From Nakamurella flavida (lineage in GTDB: Bacteria; Actinomycetota; Actinomycetes; Mycobacteriales; Nakamurellaceae): a stretch of 64,000 nt of DNA. A model generated the notes under the pieces. That model was not told the origin of the DNA. It made no database searches and saw only the letters and a program-made list of their open reading frames with translations. Shown here piece by piece: positions 26,195 to 34,081 of the stretch; the first letter of the stretch is position 1; every line of letters starts with the position of its first letter. The position numbers and the translations under genes are program-made. Location of the stretch: positions 2,131,501 to 2,195,500 of the forward strand of contig NZ_JAUSQV010000001.1 in the NCBI RefSeq assembly GCF_030811475.1, in the 5' to 3' direction.

Positions 26195-27081
26195 GTCCGC
26201 CTCCTGCGCCCGCCCGCGACGACCCGCTGATCCACCTCGGTGGCGGCGTGGTCGTCGTGCGACTGGTGGTGCACCGCGTGCAGTTCGGTGGAGGGCACGA
26301 CGATGACCCGGCCCTGCGTCCGGAAGACCTCGACCGGGGCCTGGTACAGCTCGGTCAGGGCCTCACTGGTCAGCACCTCGTCCGGCGGCCCGGCCCGGAA
26401 CCGCCCACCGGCCAGGTAGAGCACCTGGTCGACGTAGGGCAGGACGGCGTTGACGTCGTGGGTCACGAAGAGCACCGCGGTGTTGGTGCGGCGGCGCTGC
26501 TCGTCGATGAGGGCGGCGACCTCGCGCTGATGGCGCATGTCCAGGGCGGCCAGCGGTTCGTCGCACAGCAGCAGGGCGGGATCGGAGGCCAGCGCCTCGG
26601 CCACCCGGACCCGTTGCAGCTCCCCGCCCGACAGCATCGACACCGGGGCCTGGGCGAATGCGGACGCCCCGACCGACGCCATCAGCGCGTCGATCCGGGC
26701 GGCGTCGGCGCGGCGGCGGGCGCCGAACGCGACCGGCATCCCCCACCGGTGCCCGTCCAGGCCCATCCGGACGACATCCCGGGCCTTGACCATGGTCGCG
26801 GAGTCGATGGCCACCCGCTGCGGCACGTACCCGACGCGGGTGTCACCGCGGCTCACCGGGCGGCCCATCACCCACGCCCGGCCGGCGGTCAGCGGCTGGG
26901 TGCCGAGCAGCACGCGCAGCAGGCTGGTCTTGCCGGAGCCGTTGGACCCCAGGACGGCGACGAACTGACCCTGCGGGACGTCCAGGTCGAGGTCGTGCCA
27001 GAGCGCGTGCGAACCGTAGGACAGGCAGGCGCCCCGGAGTCGGAGCGCCTGCCTGTCCTCGGGAGCCTGCGGATCAGCCAC
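26191..27081 (-). CDS. znuC: Zinc-type ABC importer ATPase ZnuC
   Basis: A 296-residue ATPase: Walker A LGSNGSGKTS (~45-54), signature LSGGELQRVRVAEAL, Walker B LLLCDEP, switch His in FVTHDVNAV. The C-terminus is longer than usual and ends in a His/Asp-rich tail (HAVHHQSHDDHAATEVDQ), which could bind metal. It starts at a GTG and overlaps znuA by 8 bp. The first ~60 bp of the gene hold a perfect 15-bp inverted repeat (27018-27059), which is unusual inside a coding region. Confidence 0.9.
   Translation of the reverse strand: MADPQAPEDRQALRLRGACLSYGSHALWHDLDLDVPQGQFVAVLGSNGSGKTSLLRVLLGTQPLTAGRAWVMGRPVSRGDTRVGYVPQRVAIDSATMVKARDVVRMGLDGHRWGMPVAFGARRRADAARIDALMASVGASAFAQAPVSMLSGGELQRVRVAEALASDPALLLCDEPLAALDMRHQREVAALIDEQRRRTNTAVLFVTHDVNAVLPYVDQVLYLAGGRFRAGPPDEVLTSEALTELYQAPVEVFRTQGRVIVVPSTELHAVHHQSHDDHAATEVDQRVVAGGRRRRT
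27018..27059 (-). promoter_or_regulatory. 15-bp perfect inverted repeat inside the znuC 5' end
   Basis: AGGACAGGCAGGCGC (27018-27032) and its exact reverse complement (27045-27059) flank a 12-nt loop, within codons ~8-22 of znuC. In RNA this would be a very stable hairpin just after the znuC start and after the znuA stop. It could lower znuC translation or cause partial termination, letting znuA, the binding protein, be made in excess. The function is inferred. Confidence 0.6.
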
Positions 27082-28048
27082 CGAGGGCCGTGTCCAGGGC
27101 GGTGAGGTTCGACCCCATCCAACCCAGGTAGTCCTGCCCGGCGGGCAGGGTCTCGGTCACCGGGACCACCGCGATGCCGTTGTCCTTCGCCGCCTGCAGG
27201 ACGGCCTCGGTCTGCGGGCCGGAGGTCTGGGAGTTGTAGACCAGGGCGTCGACCTTCTTGTCGGCGAACAGCGCCAGGGTCTGCTGCAACACATCGGCGG
27301 GCACGTCGGTCTCCTGCTCGATGGCTTCGGCGAACGCGTCCGGGGTGAGGTCGTCGAGGCCGGACGCGTCGAGCATATAGACCGGGACGGGCTCGGTGAT
27401 GGCCACGGGGGCGCCGTCGTGGGTCGCCTTGATCTGCTGTTCCTGGGCGATCAACGCGTCGACCTTCCCGCTGAACGCGGTGGCGTTGGCCCGGTACTCG
27501 GCGGCATGGGCCGGGTCGGCGGCGGCGAGGTCGTCGGCGATCGCCGCGGCCACCTTCTGCACGGTCGGGAAGTCGTACCAGACGTGCTCGTTGAGTTCGT
27601 CGCCGCTGTACCCGGCGACCTCGACGGCGTTGACCACGGTGGCGTTGCCGCCGCTGGAGGCCATCATCGTGTCGACGAAGTCGTCGTACCCGCCGCCGTT
27701 CTCGACGACCAGGGCCGCCTTGGAGAGGGCGAGCTGGTTCTGCGCGTTCGCCTCGTAGGAGTGCGGGTCGGCGGACGGGTCGGAGATGAGCGACAGCACG
27801 TCGACATGGGTGCCGCCGATCTGCTCGGCGACGTCGCCCCACACGTTGGTGGAGGCGACGACCTGCACGGTGCCGGCCGACGCCGCGGCCGCCCCCGAAC
27901 CCGTGGTGTCCGAACCCGCGGTCGCAGCCGACGGGGTGGTGCTCGACGAACCGCAGGCGGAGAGCACCACCACGGCGACGGCGAGACCGCCCACCACCCC
28001 CGTGACCCGTCCGCGTGCCCGGGATGTCCCGATCGACCTGCCCATCAT
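27074..28048 (-). CDS. znuA: Zinc-type ABC importer binding lipoprotein ZnuA
   Basis: A 324-residue cluster A-I metal-binding protein: lipoprotein signal (VVVLSACGSS), then VVASTNVWGDVAEQIGG, SDPSADPHSYEA with a ligand His, NEHVWYDFPTV with a second conserved His, and a C-terminal half with DALVYNSQTSGPQTEAVL. It lacks the long His-rich loop of some ZnuA proteins, so it resembles the AztC/manganese-zinc type. It is first in the znuACB operon. The ATG at 28048 (one of two tandem ATGs) is preceded by GAGGGTGG, and a Zur-like site lies 27 bp upstream. Confidence 0.9.
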   Translation of the reverse strand: MMGRSIGTSRARGRVTGVVGGLAVAVVVLSACGSSSTTPSAATAGSDTTGSGAAAASAGTVQVVASTNVWGDVAEQIGGTHVDVLSLISDPSADPHSYEANAQNQLALSKAALVVENGGGYDDFVDTMMASSGGNATVVNAVEVAGYSGDELNEHVWYDFPTVQKVAAAIADDLAAADPAHAAEYRANATAFSGKVDALIAQEQQIKATHDGAPVAITEPVPVYMLDASGLDDLTPDAFAEAIEQETDVPADVLQQTLALFADKKVDALVYNSQTSGPQTEAVLQAAKDNGIAVVPVTETLPAGQDYLGWMGSNLTALDTALGG

Positions 28049-28075
28049 CGACTGCCACCCTCGCTGTAATCGGAC

Positions 28076-28090
28076 TGAGAATCAGTCTCG
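28076..28090. promoter_or_regulatory. Zur-like operator 4 (upstream of znuA)
   Basis: TGAGAATCAGTCTCG on the plus strand, inside the wider imperfect palindrome GACTGAGAATCAGTC. Its first 11 bases match the minus strand of the CobW-like operator at 18121-18135 exactly. It is 27 bp upstream of the znuA start. This is the best anchor for calling the group a Zur regulon, since znuACB is a classic Zur target. Confidence 0.65.
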
Positions 28091-28148
28091 ACAGACTAGC
28101 GAAGTCCAGGGCCGGGGAGAAATCGGCGGCCGGCCACCCCGTCGGTCG

Positions 28149-28382
28149 TCACGGGGCCGGTCGTCCCAGGGCTCGCGGTGTGTCCGGGCCGTCCAGCAAC
28201 TGCCCGACGAACTCGTCGACCTCGACCCCGGCCCGGTCGGCGCGTCGCCGGAGATCGGTCGCGGCCGCGGCGGCCGAGGCTCCGGTCAGCGCCATCAGGA
28301 TCCCGACGGCGCGACCGCGCCGCCCGCACCTGGTCACCCCGGCGACCAGACGACCGGCGGGATCGGTGTCCGCGGCGCTCAT
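28149..28382 (-). CDS. Small ANTAR-domain protein without sensor domain
   Basis: A 77-residue protein that is essentially one ANTAR domain (RAVGILMALTGASAAAAATDLRRRADRAGVEVDEFVGQLL). ANTAR domains bind paired RNA hairpins and prevent transcription termination. Most have an attached GAF or receiver domain, which is missing here. It may dimerise with the neighbouring GAF-ANTAR proteins or be a degenerate paralogue. Its ATG has no clear ribosome binding site but overlaps (ATGA) the stop of a small upstream open frame, so coupled translation is possible. Confidence 0.6.
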   Translation of the reverse strand: MSAADTDPAGRLVAGVTRCGRRGRAVGILMALTGASAAAAATDLRRRADRAGVEVDEFVGQLLDGPDTPRALGRPAP

Positions 28383-28494
28383 CGGAGGTCGGCCACGGTG
28401 GACGGCCCGGACGGCGCACGGCCGGGCGGCCGCCCGGAGGGCGGGCCGAAGGGCGGGCCGAAGGGCGGGCCGAAGGTCTCGGGGGGAGGGGGCA
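28379..28494 (-). CDS. Possible 38-residue Pro/Gly-rich small ORF coupled to the ANTAR gene
   Basis: The ATG at 28494 follows a GAGGA site by five bases, and the frame ends in an ATGA overlap with the ANTAR-only gene. The product begins MPPPPETFGPPFGPP and contains three FGPP repeats made by a 12-bp DNA tandem repeat. Codons end almost only in G or C. No family is recognised. It could be a leader that drives translation of the ANTAR gene, or chance coding in a repeat. Confidence 0.3.
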
Positions 28495-28755
28495 TGTCGG
28501 TCCTCGGAACGGGCTCCGGCGCACTGCTCCCCGGGGCGACGCCTGGGCCGACTGTCCGACCCGACGCCCTCGACACTAAACCCGGCTGCGGCGCGGGGAG
28601 TCGTCCCGAGGTTCTGATTCAGGCAGATCGGGGTGATGCCCCTGGAAGAGTGAGCCCAGGCATGGAATGGTGACGTTCACCCGTCGGAACGTGAGCGGAC
28701 CGCACGGGCGTGCGGCGGGGACCCCGGGAGAGCCGGGGCCGGTACGGGGGTCGCC
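28383..28755. other. Intergenic region between the divergent ANTAR genes
   Basis: About 370 bases holding the 12-bp repeat, the doubtful small ORF at 28379-28494 and presumably the promoters of both flanking ANTAR genes. From about 28575 to 28755 I see no gene, only a possible promoter region of the rightward GAF-ANTAR gene at 28756. Confidence 0.5.
28439..28474. repeat. 12-bp tandem repeat, three perfect copies
   Basis: Three exact head-to-tail copies of GGGCGGGCCGAA. Because the unit is a multiple of three, it keeps any reading frame; on the minus strand it gives FGPP repeats in the small ORF at 28379-28494. The copy number could vary between strains. Confidence 0.85.
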
Positions 28756-29577
28756 ATGAACGTGGTCGAGGAGTTCGCCGCCGCGATGGACGCCGTCACC
28801 GGACGCTCCCGCGCCGAGCATTCCGCGCTGCTGCCCAACAAGCTCGCCTGGGCGTGCGTCCGGGTCCTCGGGGTCAGCGGCGCCAGCCTCAGCGTCAGCA
28901 CCGATCCCGACCTGCGCATCCCGCTGGGCGCGAGCAGCGAAGCCGCCAGCACCGCGGAATCCCTGCAGTACACCACCGGGACGGGCCCCTGCCTGGACGC
29001 CCACGCCACCGGTGTCGCCGTCCTGGCGCCCGAGCCCGTGCTGGCCCGACGCTGGCCGGTCTACCACCTGCACCTGGTCCACCGCACGGCGTTCCGGGCT
29101 GTGCACGCCCTCCCGCTCCGCGGTGGACTGACCGGGATCGGCACCCTGGACCTGTACTTCGAGTCCGACGCCGCCCTCGCCGCCCACGATCCCCGCGCCG
29201 CCGAGGCGGTGGCCGATGCCGTCGCAGCGGCCCTGCTGGCCGACCCGGCCGCCGCCGGGACCGGTGAGCCGATCTGGCTGAACTCGCCCCTTGCCCGGGC
29301 CCGGACGACGGTGGCCATCGCGGTCGGCATGGTGGTCATCGACCAGGACCTGTCCCCCGCGACCGCGCTGGAACTGATCCGCGGGCACGCCCGGGGGCTG
29401 GAGTCCACCGTCGACCTGATCGCCCGGCAGATCGTCGACCGCGCCCTGACCCCGGCCGCACTCACCGCGGACGCACACACCGCGGCGATCGCAGCCGGCG
29501 GCTCACCCGTCCTCGACCTACCTGTCGCGGACGACGGGCCCATGCCGCTGACCACCACGGACGTCCAGCCGCACTGA
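28756..29577 (+). CDS. GAF-ANTAR regulator 1
   Basis: A 273-residue protein with an N-terminal GAF sensor (~15-165; TTGTGPCLDAHATGVAVLAPEPVLARRWPVY is the usual GAF-ANTAR core) and a C-terminal ANTAR-like segment (~178-235; RARTTVAIAVGMVVIDQDLSPATALELIRGHARG). The last ~35 residues are not conserved. The ANTAR part is more divergent than in its neighbours, with AVGMVVIDQ replacing the usual IGILMAR. Signal and RNA targets unknown. First of a run of five GAF-ANTAR genes. Confidence 0.82.
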   Translation: MNVVEEFAAAMDAVTGRSRAEHSALLPNKLAWACVRVLGVSGASLSVSTDPDLRIPLGASSEAASTAESLQYTTGTGPCLDAHATGVAVLAPEPVLARRWPVYHLHLVHRTAFRAVHALPLRGGLTGIGTLDLYFESDAALAAHDPRAAEAVADAVAAALLADPAAAGTGEPIWLNSPLARARTTVAIAVGMVVIDQDLSPATALELIRGHARGLESTVDLIARQIVDRALTPAALTADAHTAAIAAGGSPVLDLPVADDGPMPLTTTDVQPH

Positions 29578-29627
29578 ACCTCCGGGCCGGCACGTGAGCG
29601 CCCGGGCCCGACCGTGCTCGAACCGGC

Positions 29628-30356
29628 TCAGTCCTCGCGCAGGGACGCCCCGGCCAACACCTCCCGGGCGATGTCGATGAGCGGCCGGTCCTGGGCGAAG
29701 GCGGCCGCCCGCAGTTCGGCCAGCGCGGCGTGCACGGAGATGCCGTGGCGCGCGGCGACCATGCCCGTGGCCCGGGGCACCTCGATCTCCCCGATGCCCC
29801 GCTCGTCCTCGCCCGGCCCGGCGAACAGCTCGGAGCGGGTGAAGTCGTCCATCACCGAGTGGGCGGCCGCGTCGGCGAGCAGCAGGGCCGTGGCCAGCTC
29901 CTCCGGGGCCAGCACACCGGGAGTGGCGCGGTACAGCTCCAGGACGCCGAACGGGACGGCGCCGATCTGCAGCGGGAAGGCGAACACCGCCGCCACCCCC
30001 AACCCCAGCGCCTCGCGGGTGAACAAAGGCCAGCGCCTCGCCACGTCCGGTGCGGTGAGATCCGGTTGCAGAACGGGGATGCGCAGGCGATAGGCGTCCC
30101 GGCACGGACCCTCCCCGACCACGAACTGGATGTCGTCCAGCCGGGCGACCACGGGGTCGGTCGCGTGCAGGAGTTCCTTGGTCACCAACGAACCGCGGAC
30201 GGTGACCGCGGCTCCGTCGACGGGAAGCAGGGTGACGCATCGCCGGCACAGCTCGACGGTCCGACCGATCGGCATGCCGCCGGCCCAGACCTCGTCCGGC
30301 GTACCCAGCTGCATCCGGGGTTCCGCTCCGGTCTGCTCTCCCTCGGATCCGTGCAC
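29628..30356 (-). CDS. GAF-ANTAR regulator 2
   Basis: A 242-residue protein: GAF domain (~20-165; FVVGEGPCRDAYRLRIPVLQPDL and FAFPLQIGAVPFGVLELYR), followed by an ANTAR-type C-terminus (~175-235; ATGMVAARHGISVHAALAELRAAAFAQDRPLIDIAREVL). I chose the GTG at 30356 with a GAAAGGGGGA site. The frame is open far upstream, but only as an antisense shadow of the next genes. It is convergent with regulator 1 and divergent from regulator 3. Confidence 0.82.
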   Translation of the reverse strand: MHGSEGEQTGAEPRMQLGTPDEVWAGGMPIGRTVELCRRCVTLLPVDGAAVTVRGSLVTKELLHATDPVVARLDDIQFVVGEGPCRDAYRLRIPVLQPDLTAPDVARRWPLFTREALGLGVAAVFAFPLQIGAVPFGVLELYRATPGVLAPEELATALLLADAAAHSVMDDFTRSELFAGPGEDERGIGEIEVPRATGMVAARHGISVHAALAELRAAAFAQDRPLIDIAREVLAGASLRED

Positions 30357-30605
30357 CCCGTCCCCCTTTCGGCGGTGCGGCCCCGCCCCGACACGCCGGG
30401 TCGGGCACCGATGCGACAAGCGTGCCGATCCACAGCTTGTCACGCAAGCTGCACCCGGTGACGGTCCCGGACTAGTGTCGTGACCACCACGAACGGACCG
30501 CCCGGCCGTGCCGTCGGCCGGGCGGCACGCCCGGCCGGATCCGAGGCTCGAGACCTGCCGACCTCCCGGGTCGGCGGGCGGACGACACAGGCGGGGGCGG
30601 GATCG

Positions 30606-31385
30606 ATGACGGAGCCGGAATCCGCCGGGGCTAACATCTCCCCGGACGCGGTGCGCCGGGCGCTCGACGCCCTGCCCCAGGACGCGTCGCGCCTGGTCCA
30701 GGAGCTGGCCCGGCAGGTCGACAGCGAGGCCGCCCTGATCGAGATCATGCAGCGTGCGTCGGCCGAGGCCGTCCGGCTGATCGCGGACGTCAGCTGGGCG
30801 GGCGTCACGGCCCACGTCGACGGGGTGCCGTTCACCGCCGCGCACACCGACGCCCGGATGCTGGTCATCGACGAGGGCCAGTACCACGAGGGCGACGGTC
30901 CGTGCCTGCGGGCGATGCGGACCGGGCAGACCATCTGGATGTCCCTGGACGACGTCCGCCAGGTCTGGGCAGATCTGGCCGAGGTCGCCGACCGGATCGG
31001 TGTGCGGGCGTTCCGGGCCGAACCCCTGCACGCCCGGGACACGGCCGTGGGCGCTCTCAATCTCTACAGCGAACGCGACGGCGGACTCCGGCAGCCCGAC
31101 ATGGCCGTGCTCACCGTGCTGCGCCACTTCCTGGACCGGGGCTTCACCGAGTACTCGGCCCGGCAGCCCGGTGAGGATCAGGCCGTCCTGATCCGGGAGG
31201 CCGCCCGGGCCCGGGTGGTGATCGGCCGCGCGACCGGCGTGCTCATGGCCCTCCGGGGGCTCGACCAGGACACCGCGCGGGAGGAGTTGACCCGGCTGGC
31301 CGCCGAACAGGACGTCGACGTGGTGATCGCCGCCCAGGACGTCATCGATCGGCACCTGCCGCCCCGGGATCGCGACAGCCGCTGA
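30606..31385 (+). CDS. GAF-ANTAR regulator 3
   Basis: A 259-residue protein with GAF domain (~20-180; YHEGDGPCLRAMRTGQTIWM, AEPLHARDTAVGALNLYS) and a well-kept ANTAR domain (~198-250; RVVIGRATGVLMALRGLDQDTAREELTRLAAEQDVDVVIAAQDVI). The ATG at 30606 is chosen over an upstream GTG because it has a G-rich ribosome binding site and the extra 42 residues are low-complexity. The 249-bp gap to regulator 2 should hold two divergent promoters. Confidence 0.85.
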   Translation: MTEPESAGANISPDAVRRALDALPQDASRLVQELARQVDSEAALIEIMQRASAEAVRLIADVSWAGVTAHVDGVPFTAAHTDARMLVIDEGQYHEGDGPCLRAMRTGQTIWMSLDDVRQVWADLAEVADRIGVRAFRAEPLHARDTAVGALNLYSERDGGLRQPDMAVLTVLRHFLDRGFTEYSARQPGEDQAVLIREAARARVVIGRATGVLMALRGLDQDTAREELTRLAAEQDVDVVIAAQDVIDRHLPPRDRDSR

Positions 31386-31553
31386 CCGGCGGCAGATCCG
31401 GATCCCCTCGCCCCGGGTGGTTGCACCCTCCCGCTCCGACGCCGTACCGCTATCCTCTGAGACGGGTTCGACACCAGCCCGACCGTTGCTCACCCACGGC
31501 GGATGGTCCTGCGCTCGCGCACCCTGTCCGTCGCTCGCCTCCGGAGCGATCGC

Positions 31554-32225
31554 ATGACTGGTTCCCCCTTCGCCCTCCCCGCCGGCATCCCGCACCCCGC
31601 CCCCACCGCCCCGGATGCCCCCGGTCGACCCCGGGTGGGTGTGGCCGCCGCCCTCGAACGCCTGCACGTGCTCACCGGTCGGGACGCCGGTGACCGCCGG
31701 TCCGCCGGCACGATGATGGACGAGCTGGTCCCCGTGCTCGTCCCCGCCCTCGCCGACCGGTGCGCGGTCGAGCTCCTCCCCGCCTCCTCCCCGACCCCGC
31801 CCGCCGAGCGCGCATCCGGTTTCCTCGTGTTGACTTTCACCTCCGACATCGACACGGATGTCCGCGGCGTGGTGCGGTGCAGCTGGGACGGGGACCATCT
31901 GCCCTCGGACGCCGACGTCGCCGTCATCCGGGCCATCGTCGACCAGTGCGTCCTGCTCGCCGATCAGTCTCGCCTGACCGAACGGATGGACCAGCTGCAC
32001 GTGCACACCGAGCAGCTCCGGGCCGCGGTGGAGTCCAACCGCCGCATCGGTGCGGCCATCGGGGTCCTGATGGTGCGGTCGTCGCTGACCGAGGAGGCCG
32101 CCTTCGACGCTCTGCGCCGGGCCAGCAACACCGCCAACCGCAAACTGCGGGAGGTCGCCGACGAGGTGATCTACACCGGAGCGCTGCCCGAACGGCAGAG
32201 CGCCCACCGCGCTCCGGCGCACTGA
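31554..32225 (+). CDS. GAF-ANTAR regulator 4
   Basis: A 223-residue protein. The first ~150 residues look like a shortened, divergent GAF domain (DELVPVLVPALADRCAVELLP, GVVRCSWDGDHLPSDADVAVIRAIVDQCVLLADQ). The ANTAR domain (~160-212; NRRIGAAIGVLMVRSSLTEEAAFDALRRASNTANRKLREVADEVI) is canonical. The ATG at 31554 is preferred for its GGAG site seven bases upstream; an ATG at 31503 would add 17 residues. It is followed after one base by regulator 5, so the pair is one operon. Confidence 0.82.
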   Translation: MTGSPFALPAGIPHPAPTAPDAPGRPRVGVAAALERLHVLTGRDAGDRRSAGTMMDELVPVLVPALADRCAVELLPASSPTPPAERASGFLVLTFTSDIDTDVRGVVRCSWDGDHLPSDADVAVIRAIVDQCVLLADQSRLTERMDQLHVHTEQLRAAVESNRRIGAAIGVLMVRSSLTEEAAFDALRRASNTANRKLREVADEVIYTGALPERQSAHRAPAH

Positions 32226-32226
32226 C

Positions 32227-32973
32227 ATGTCACGGCCGGGCGAGGCCCAGCCGTTCGACCCCGGCGTGCCCCCGCCCCCCGGCGAAGCGCCCGACCGGCG
32301 TCCCGGGCCCCGGGTCGACGTGGCCCGTGTGGTCCACGGCCTGCAGGCGCTCGACGCGGACCCCGATCCCGTCCTCGTGCTGCTCCAGGGCATCGGGGAC
32401 GTCCTCGTCCCGGCGGCCGCCGACCGGTGCGTGGTGGAGCTGTTCCCCCGGGAGGGCCGGGCGGGTATGCGCACCGAACACGGCGGGGACGTCGCGGAGC
32501 GACTGACCCCGATCTTCGCTCCGCCGGCGCGGTCGGCGACCGCACGGCGCCTGGTCCGGCGACGGGACCGGGTGAGCGTCGGTTTCGTCACCGCCGGTCT
32601 GGCCGAACCCTCCTCGCGCGGGTCGGTGACCTGCCGGTGGGACGACGGGCACGTGCCGACCGAGCAGGAGGCCGAACTCATCCAGTTGGTCGTCGATCAC
32701 TGCGTGCTCGTCCTCTACCGTCAGCGCCTGGCCGAGTCGCTCCGCTCGGCCCGGCTCCGCGCCGGGACGCTGCAGAACGGGGTTCGCGACACCCTGCAGA
32801 CCGGCGCCGCCGTCGGGGTGCTGATGGCCCGGTACGGCCTGAGTCAGGAGCGGGCGACCGACCTGCTGCACCGCAGCGCGTTGTCCGGCGGGCGCAGCAT
32901 GGGCGAGACCGGGGAGACCGTCCTGCGGACCGGGGAACTTCCCGGTGGCATCCGCCCGCCGGCCGGCCCCTAG
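32227..32973 (+). CDS. GAF-ANTAR regulator 5
   Basis: A 248-residue protein built like regulator 4, to which it is clearly related (DPVLVLLQGIGDVLVPAAADRCVVELFP, GSVTCRWDDGHVPTEQEAELIQLVVDHCVLV). It ends in an ANTAR domain (~185-240; GAAVGVLMARYGLSQERATDLLHRSALSGGRSMGETGETVL). One base separates it from regulator 4, and the two probably arose by tandem duplication. It converges on rlmB with a 16-bp gap. Confidence 0.82.
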   Translation: MSRPGEAQPFDPGVPPPPGEAPDRRPGPRVDVARVVHGLQALDADPDPVLVLLQGIGDVLVPAAADRCVVELFPREGRAGMRTEHGGDVAERLTPIFAPPARSATARRLVRRRDRVSVGFVTAGLAEPSSRGSVTCRWDDGHVPTEQEAELIQLVVDHCVLVLYRQRLAESLRSARLRAGTLQNGVRDTLQTGAAVGVLMARYGLSQERATDLLHRSALSGGRSMGETGETVLRTGELPGGIRPPAGP

Positions 32974-32989
32974 AACTCCACCCCCGGGG

Positions 32990-33973
32990 TCAGCCCCGAC
33001 CGGCCTCGACCCGACGGCGCCGGGCGACCTCGGCCAGCACCACACCGGTGGCCACGGACGCGTTCAGCGACTCCACCGTGCGGGCCATCGGGATGGAGAC
33101 GGTGACGTCACAGACGGTGCGGGTCAACCGGGCGAGCCCACGCCCTTCGGACCCGACCACGATGACCAGCGGGCTGGTGGCCAGCTCGAACGTGTCGGTG
33201 TCCATGTCCCCGTCGGCGTCCAGCCCGGCGATCATCAGGCCGGCCGCGGCCAGGTCCTTCAGGGTGCGGACCAGGTTGGTGCAGCGCGCCACGCGCAACC
33301 GCGCGGCGGTGCCGGCCGAGGTGCGCCAGGCCGAGGCGGTGACGCCGGCGCTGCGCCGTTCCGGCACAATCACGCCGTGCGCGCCGAAGGCGGCGGCGGA
33401 CCGGATGATCGCGCCCAGGTTGCGGGGGTCGGTGACGCCGTCCACCGCGACGAGCAGCGGGGCCCGGCCGGAGTCCTTGGCCCGGGCGAGCAGGTCGTCC
33501 GGGTGGGCGTAGGTGTAGGGCGGCACCTGCAGGGCCAGGCCCTGGTGGATGGCGTTCCCGGTGAGCCGGTCGAGCTCGGGCCGGGCGACCTCCATCAGGG
33601 CGATGCCCTTGTTGCCGGCGAGCGCGACCGCCTCGGCCAGCCGTTCATCGGTGTTCACGCCCTGGGCGAGGTACAGCGCGGTGGCCGGGATGCCGGCCCG
33701 CAGCGCTTCCACCACGGGGTTGCGGCCGACCACGGTCTCCGGCAGCTCGCGGGTCTCGCGGCGGGGGCGGGCGGCGGCGGTGCCGGCCGGGGCGTCCCGG
33801 CGGGCGGCGGCCGCGGCGCGCCGGGCGGCGGGATGCCCCTTGCGCTCGACACCGGGAGGGGTGGGGCCCTTGGGCTTGATCGCCCGACGGGACTGGCCGC
33901 CCGAGCCGACCACCGCGCCCTTCTTGGTGCCGGTCTTGCGGACGGCGCCCTTGCGCTGGGAATTGCCGGCCAT
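32990..33973 (-). CDS. rlmB: 23S rRNA 2'-O-ribose methyltransferase (TrmH/SpoU family)
   Basis: A 327-residue SPOUT methyltransferase. The first ~100 residues are a basic, low-complexity tail common in actinobacterial members. Then come the SpoU substrate-binding domain ([14 protein letters not shown]) and the catalytic knot ([55 protein letters not shown]), with the three family motifs. The probable role is methylation of a 23S rRNA guanosine, as for RlmB. The ATG at 33973 has an ideal AGGAGG site. Confidence 0.9.
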
Positions 33974-34081
33974 GGTGTTCCTCCTCGTCAACGTGCTCGC
34001 GCCGGGGCGCGGGCACCGCACAGATGGTACGGGGCGCAGGGCGGGGAGCAGGTATGCCGGGAACGGCGACGGGTCGGTGGG

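Follow-up and report, generated by a model that had tools for sequence, protein, structure and literature searches.

Why should six frames of one regulator family stand side by side, and does each of their products act alone or do some act through others? The question is raised by positions 28149-32973 of a 64,000-nucleotide stretch of Nakamurella flavida DNA (the whole stretch that was analysed, hereafter the window), which are filled by six frames of the ANTAR type, R1 to R6, with zero other genes between them. Mixed-team action of ANTAR proteins is our best inference from the sequences. The reading that we prefer, with a rough probability of 0.36, is that five intact ANTAR-family genes and a remnant were inserted at this site, that R5 would be the reader of RNA, and that the proteins with atypical ANTAR domains would act via canonical ones. 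Gene content, insertion, states of the contact residues, interrupted linkers and the pairing of canonical with atypical genes in relatives were observed; from these we infer every protein contact, RNA target and signal named below. The six frames are the following (ANTAR residues in EutV numbering throughout):

28149-28382, minus strand: R1, an ANTAR-only frame of 77 amino acids (aa), probably a remnant; A164.
28756-29577, plus strand: R2, GAF (23.7 bits) and atypical ANTAR (17.5 bits); L164, R172.
29628-30314, minus strand: R3, GAF and atypical ANTAR; L164, F172.
30606-31385, plus strand: R4, GAF and atypical ANTAR; R164.
31503-32225, plus strand: R5, ANTAR with an apparently unbroken coil, F164, R168 and NRK at 175-177; N-terminal part without a Pfam match.
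32227-32973, plus strand: R6, a paralogue of R5 that starts 1 nucleotide (nt) past the R5 stop; T164.

A preliminary description of this DNA had reported the cluster of six in less than 5 kb, on mixed strands and without an intervening gene, and this was borne out: the strand order from R1 to R6 is -, +, -, +, +, + and the gaps are 373, 50, 291, 117 and 1 nt. Membership in the ANTAR family (PF03861) held for R3 (28.1 bits), R4 (34.6), R5 (61.7) and R6 (28.3) at the Pfam cut-off of 27.3 bits; R1 (23.0) and R2 (17.5) fell below it, with alignments that span part or most of the domain. The count of five GAF-ANTAR proteins was too high, as Pfam GAF was found in R2, R3 and R4 only (zero matches for R5 and R6 at E-values up to 10; none for R1). 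The NCBIfam scan of R2-R6 gave zero matches at E 0.01. The open frames R2-R6 have host-like codon usage and coding scores of 0.21-0.41, R1 the lowest score (0.12). A decayed core had been proposed for R1, and the frame does look remnant-like: its match covers profile positions 14-48 of 54 and it is weakly similar to an R2-type protein (43% over 54 aa, E 1e-4). Decay of R1 is likely, and may also affect R2 and R3; a remnant is probably the best reading of so short, partly aligned and poorly coding a frame as R1. Just upstream of its start, at 28413-28470, lie direct repeats with 12-nt steps in a stretch without coding signal. The earliest possible start of R4 is a GTG at 30480, the ATG at 30606 being preferred.

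The evidence that bears most directly on joint action comes from relatives of R3. When R3 was used as query against 298 genomes of its order, matches were found in 87 (E 1e-20), and with the window excluded a canonical GAF-ANTAR gene lies directly downstream of the R3-type gene at at least 93 of 120 places, in at least 75 of 86 genomes. The partner in this arrangement (type B) is one kind of canonical gene, on the same strand, at a median distance of 68 bp. Places outside the order were sought with an R3-type query in 345 genomes of the class, and there the R3-type gene is directly upstream of the canonical partner at at least 84 of 103 places, in at least 71 of 83 genomes. The pairing counts are lower bounds, two of 20 inspected "unpaired" places proving to hold a pair. 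Among R3-type proteins (two of 73 domains being unscorable) position 172 is F or Y in 71/71 and position 164 is non-aromatic in 57/71; in all scorable cases (20/20 and 14/14) the canonical partner carries F or Y at position 164. Across 17 paired loci the mean pairwise identity of the ANTAR domain is 0.54 for the atypical protein and 0.53 for its partner, that of the GAF domain 0.49 and 0.52; the atypical ANTAR domain thus equals that of its partner in conservation and surpasses the GAF domain of its own protein, which argues that it is under constraint and not decaying there. An HQ motif at 146-147 is kept in 37/48 paired against 5/25 unpaired R3-type proteins (p 4e-6, in a test that ignores shared ancestry), and R3 of the window has P-R in its place. 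Around 20 type-B pairs no family beyond ANTAR genes occurred in more than four of the 20 loci, in a survey with a crude gene caller that missed some pair members. No description of canonical/atypical tandem pairs or of ANTAR clusters was found when open-licence papers were searched, in part specifically for clusters, pairs or heterodimers; one may exist elsewhere.

A further pairing, type A, combines a canonical protein that is strongly conserved with a weak one; it is present in the genus and, among 183 genomes, in five others. Of its eight atypical matches six stand immediately downstream of the canonical gene, another is divergently adjacent and the last lies near a contig start. The weak proteins form a clade separate from the R3 type, in a tree whose deep branches lack resolution; judging from these sequences, atypical ANTAR genes seem to have become linked to canonical ones on at least two occasions. 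Tentatively, and with less likelihood than the reading preferred above, actinomycetes may hold a heteromeric ANTAR regulator encoded by a tandem pair, with at least two such pairs: the atypical GAF-ANTAR protein, which has an aromatic residue at 172, mostly lacks one at 164 and is without a continuous coil, would sense; the canonical GAF-ANTAR protein would bind RNA; and the array in the window would be a rebuilt set of orphaned sensing subunits around R5.

What the ANTAR domains could do with RNA was judged against EutV. In the structure of EutV with RNA (PMC8934654), Tyr164 is stacked against the conserved hexaloop nucleotide G4 and the loop is plugged by Met172; residues 142, 149, 160, 168, 173, 175 and 177 contact RNA, and a dimer engages a single hexaloop at any one time. 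Of 181 ANTAR domains in the genus 177 could be aligned to EutV (four did not align); position 164 is F, W, Y or H in 140, non-aromatic in 36 (22 L, seven R, seven others) and gapped in one, and the hydrophobic core (148, 150, 163, 167, 182, 185) is similar in the aromatic and non-aromatic sets. Within the window F164 together with NRK at 175-177 is found in R5 only, whose contact residues are the most canonical among the six frames, and R2 and R4 have zero basic residues at 175-177.

The linker was assessed by the number of prolines and glycines in the 34 residues before the ANTAR domain, a proxy for the coil. This count is 0 for R5, 2 for R6, 3 for R4 and 5 for each of R2 and R3, against a canonical mean of 1.65 (range 0-6, n=129) and a mean of 4.9 in the clade of R2 and R3 (n=18); in the loci of the order R3-type proteins average 4.5 (n=19) and their canonical partners 2.0 (n=17). 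A proline- and glycine-rich stretch here replaces the coiled-coil helix of canonical proteins, and by this proxy R2- and R3-type proteins seem to have no unbroken helix of that kind.

Put together, R5 would be the one likely RNA binder of the array, dimerizing via its coiled coil and reading an RNA hairpin with F164 and the basic loop. R6, translated from the next start codon, would probably join R5 through a matching coil, its own contact surface being weakened. R2, R3 and R4 would be GAF sensors with ANTAR bundles that lack the stacking aromatic residue at 164 and, in R2 and R3, also a continuous coil. They would most likely act on canonical ANTAR proteins, whether by competing with them or by forming mixed assemblies via surfaces of the GAF or ANTAR domain, and would less likely be separate homodimeric antiterminators. 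The preliminary description's suggestion of heterodimers gains weight because, across actinomycetes, atypical ANTAR genes are often in tandem with canonical ones and because R5 and R6 lie 1 nt apart.

A number of observations weigh against this proposal. The pair is not strict, since the converse association is looser (an R3-type gene precedes 85 of the 118 best matches to the partner) and four of ten genomes with the type-A canonical protein have zero type-A atypical matches. Of the 71 R3-type domains 14 carry F164. The type-B canonical partner has zero matches at E 1e-25 in this genome, so that R3, left without it, cannot work here as its relatives may. At positions 142 and 149, where EutV carries R and K, R5 carries N and I, and the EutV lysines that make trans contacts (143, 147) show no special conservation in atypical domains. 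A coiled-coil heterodimer for R2 and R3 was considered and is weakened by their interrupted linkers. The HQ comparison and the clustering tests given further below neglect shared ancestry. Moreover, 23 of 85 otherwise canonical-like domains (loci L063-L080 and L197-L291) are without an aromatic residue at 164, and scores of 55-63 bits, along with NRK, are found in several domains of the genus that have L or M at this position; by this comparison the lack of the aromatic residue alone is no proof of lost RNA binding, and its absence from canonical-like domains lowered our estimate for R5 as reader with partners and raised that for independent regulators. As an observation in its own right, the residues that replace Tyr164 in the 23 domains are I, M, V, L and G, and a stacking aromatic at this position is less universal than the EutV structure suggests.

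How the array came to its site can be read from its flanks, which are the following:

27074-28048, minus strand: ZnuA-like zinc-binding protein bordering the insertion on its left; its metal-binding matches in NCBIfam all score below cut-off.
32990-34021, minus strand: RlmB at the right edge of the insertion (TIGR00186, 198.8 bits; cut-off 160.15).

A ZnuA-ZnuC-ZnuB-like transporter operon begins 100 nt to the left of the array and RlmB ends 16 nt to the right. ZnuA and RlmB have remained adjacent in seven of the 16 congeners, with 117-1,623 bp between their matched parts, and three of these seven gaps hold another open frame, not of the ANTAR type; in the other nine the two were not seen as neighbours (moved, turned, at the end of the stretch, or with ZnuA unrecognised). 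No ANTAR domain was found between ZnuA and RlmB in the 16 congener loci, two of which are short; locus L035 has one at another place. Because seven congeners keep ZnuA next to RlmB without ANTAR genes between them, the six frames are, on this comparison, an insertion in this lineage, and the array would be a species-specific island drawn from at least two lineages. A mobile element was considered as carrier; the only tRNA of the window is distant (480-556) and no edge-marking repeats were found in 27900-33200, mobility genes not having been searched for.

The ancestry of the frames was examined in a tree of 178 proteins, from which R1, one stop-bearing gene and two pieces of a frameshifted gene were left out and to which R2 was added. 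R2, R3 and R4 fall within one mostly atypical group of 24 rows (support 92), with R2 inside an atypical clade of 18 rows. R3 joins the gene at 2493125 of congener G011 (support 99), and the nearest relatives of R3 and R4 are two adjacent genes of G011; the best BLAST match of R2 is another gene of its own genome (39%). Genes of the R3 and R4 types adjoin as a tandem in G011, divergently in G159, which is also their arrangement in the window, and convergently in Rhodococcus sp. G-MC3, whereas no R3-type gene was seen alongside the remaining R4-type genes of the genus. R5 and R6 form a clade of three with a gene of G002 (support 97), in another group than R2-R4, the join of R5 and R6 linking long branches according to a warning of the program. 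The recent tandem duplication formerly proposed for R5 and R6 does not fit this position or their identity of 32% over 222 aa, which points to old paralogues. The idea of an array evolving by duplication can be kept for R5 and R6 only, R2, R3 and R4 belonging, as far as the tree indicates, to older subfamilies with relatives elsewhere.

Clustering itself sets the locus less apart than had been supposed. This genome has 21 ANTAR matches on its 4.32 Mb chromosome (R2 is not among them) and the genus 181, in 15 of the 17 genomes searched, its own included. In these 15 genomes 37 ANTAR neighbour pairs within 3 kb were counted, one of which (G008:C229) is a single frameshifted gene, leaving 36 true pairs against 1.7 expected at random places with draft genomes counted as one piece; in this genome there are eight against 0.28. 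Since neighbour pairs so far exceed expectation, clustering is a habit of the genus and not an oddity of this locus, and the view of ANTAR genes as normally scattered does not apply here. Low-scoring domains (<45 bits) are clustered in 23/39 cases and strong ones in 37/142 (p 2e-4), and non-aromatic domains somewhat more often (18/37) than aromatic ones (40/140; p 0.03), both tests ignoring shared ancestry. Couchioplanes caeruleus, Kibdelosporangium aridum and Sciscionella marina also have groups of four or five ANTAR genes; the one in C. caeruleus (L253:5697-8700), with five ANTAR domains in 3 kb, is an array of similar size. The N. flavida genome has four more ANTAR genes grouped at another place (L038:7639-12969; G000:C1, about 402.6-408.0 kb), among them a complete type-A canonical/atypical pair. 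Elsewhere in this genome (L058:4685-5071; G000:C1 564684-565070) an R2-type gene meets a canonical ANTAR gene end to end in convergent orientation, and G011 has a like pair at 1521552/1521900.

Structure models were obtained for two of the proteins. The AlphaFold model of R4, built with 23 relatives, has a GAF domain, a helix and a three-helix ANTAR bundle (predicted local distance difference test, pLDDT, 81.7), and in Foldseek its GAF part matched two solved GAF domains, 3hcy with a TMt of 0.70 and 3o5y with one of 0.68. Whole-chain matches ranked at the top, to quorum-sensing regulators and phytochromes, were a poor fit. The GAF part is strongly conserved in the R4 family. Two congener R4-type proteins (G005:C1:3018976, G001:C1:3898373) keep the GAF part and have a further eroded ANTAR domain, in which even glycine 150 is affected. 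The model of R6, built with R5 only, has a helix at 146-203, confident from about residue 171, and a C-terminal three-helix ANTAR bundle, its N-terminal part not being resolved (mean pLDDT 57.4). Inside this Pfam-less part a C-x-W motif (C126/W128 of R5) is conserved between R5 and R6 (window 31503-32973).

Candidate RNA targets and signals were sought near these genes. The window holds five dual hexaloops of the A1/G4 type, no excess over the 7.6 expected (simulated range 2-22), one of them (32041-32091, minus strand) antisense within R5, and none was found upstream of 19 R3-type genes (0.35 expected). Single A1/C4 hairpins after R3-type genes number nine against 1.4 expected, in one of 14 comparisons and in related coding DNA. 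At the gathering threshold Rfam found tRNA only in the window, and a scan of 27900-33150 yielded zero promoter-like sites and one terminator-like site, which is near chance.

Nearly as good as a reader with partners is an explanation in which every intact protein acts as a homodimer on an RNA of its own, as antiterminator or as regulator of translation, the atypical domains reading a different loop and the R3-type ones doing so via aromatic 172. The invariant F or Y there occupies the position of the loop-plugging Met172 in the EutV account (PMC8934654), the R3-type ANTAR domain is strongly conserved, and the 23 canonical-like domains without aromatic 164 fit it as well; yet the linker before the domain is interrupted, R2 and R4 lack the basic residues, hexaloops show no excess in the window or upstream of R3-type genes, and pairing with canonical genes is frequent.

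Two further explanations were weighed. That the array is a decaying relic of inserted paralogues, among which R5 may still function, is in keeping with the fragment-like R1, the sub-threshold ANTAR scores of R1 and R2, the loss of HQ and of the partner of R3, and the occurrence of the array at this site in none of the 16 congener loci. It appears unlikely, however, in view of the open frames and host-like codon usage of R2-R6, the conserved GAF part of the R4 family and the R3-R4 neighbourhoods in G011, G159 and Rhodococcus sp. G-MC3. Least probable is mere co-location, in which the junction tolerates insertion, ANTAR genes are abundant and no functional link exists: the size of the family in this genome, the mixed orientations and the lack of conserved genes around type-B pairs agree with it, but the excess of neighbour pairs over the genus and the recurrence of arrays of four to five genes in Couchioplanes, Kibdelosporangium and Sciscionella do not.

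If many ANTAR proteins were partners rather than readers, regulator counts and target searches would have to change, and the conserved pair offers a small, testable two-gene system. According to a survey (PMC8164766), many actinobacterial genomes have several ANTAR proteins, yet mostly one to three predicted target RNAs, and ANTAR proteins without any predicted RNA are reported for less than 30% of species.

Compared with known systems, the array shares the ANTAR bundle with EutV of Enterococcus faecalis (REC-ANTAR, PDB 6WSH/6WW6), of which R5 keeps the aromatic residue at 164 and R168. In contrast to EutV, the window proteins have no REC domain, R1-R4 and R6 lack aromatic 164, R5 lacks R142 and K149, and the window is without an excess of dual hexaloops. 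PAL of Nakamurella multipartita (PAS-ANTAR-LOV, PDB 6HMJ) is also a one-component sensor with an ANTAR domain, and the ANTAR segment of congener G002 is identical to it in 50/50 residues; as described (PMC7496416), PAL is a single light-sensing protein with another domain order, whereas the window genes encode GAF-type or unassigned sensors and stand in an array. With the actinobacterial GAF-ANTAR proteins (PF03861 plus GAF) R2, R3 and R4 share their architecture, and they differ in their atypical contact residues and in the crowding of six ANTAR-type frames into less than 5 kb. With the type-B tandem pair the array shares a member of the upstream subfamily, R3; it differs in that this genome yielded no match to the canonical partner. 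The ANTAR family is a known one; the pairing and the residue pattern look new.

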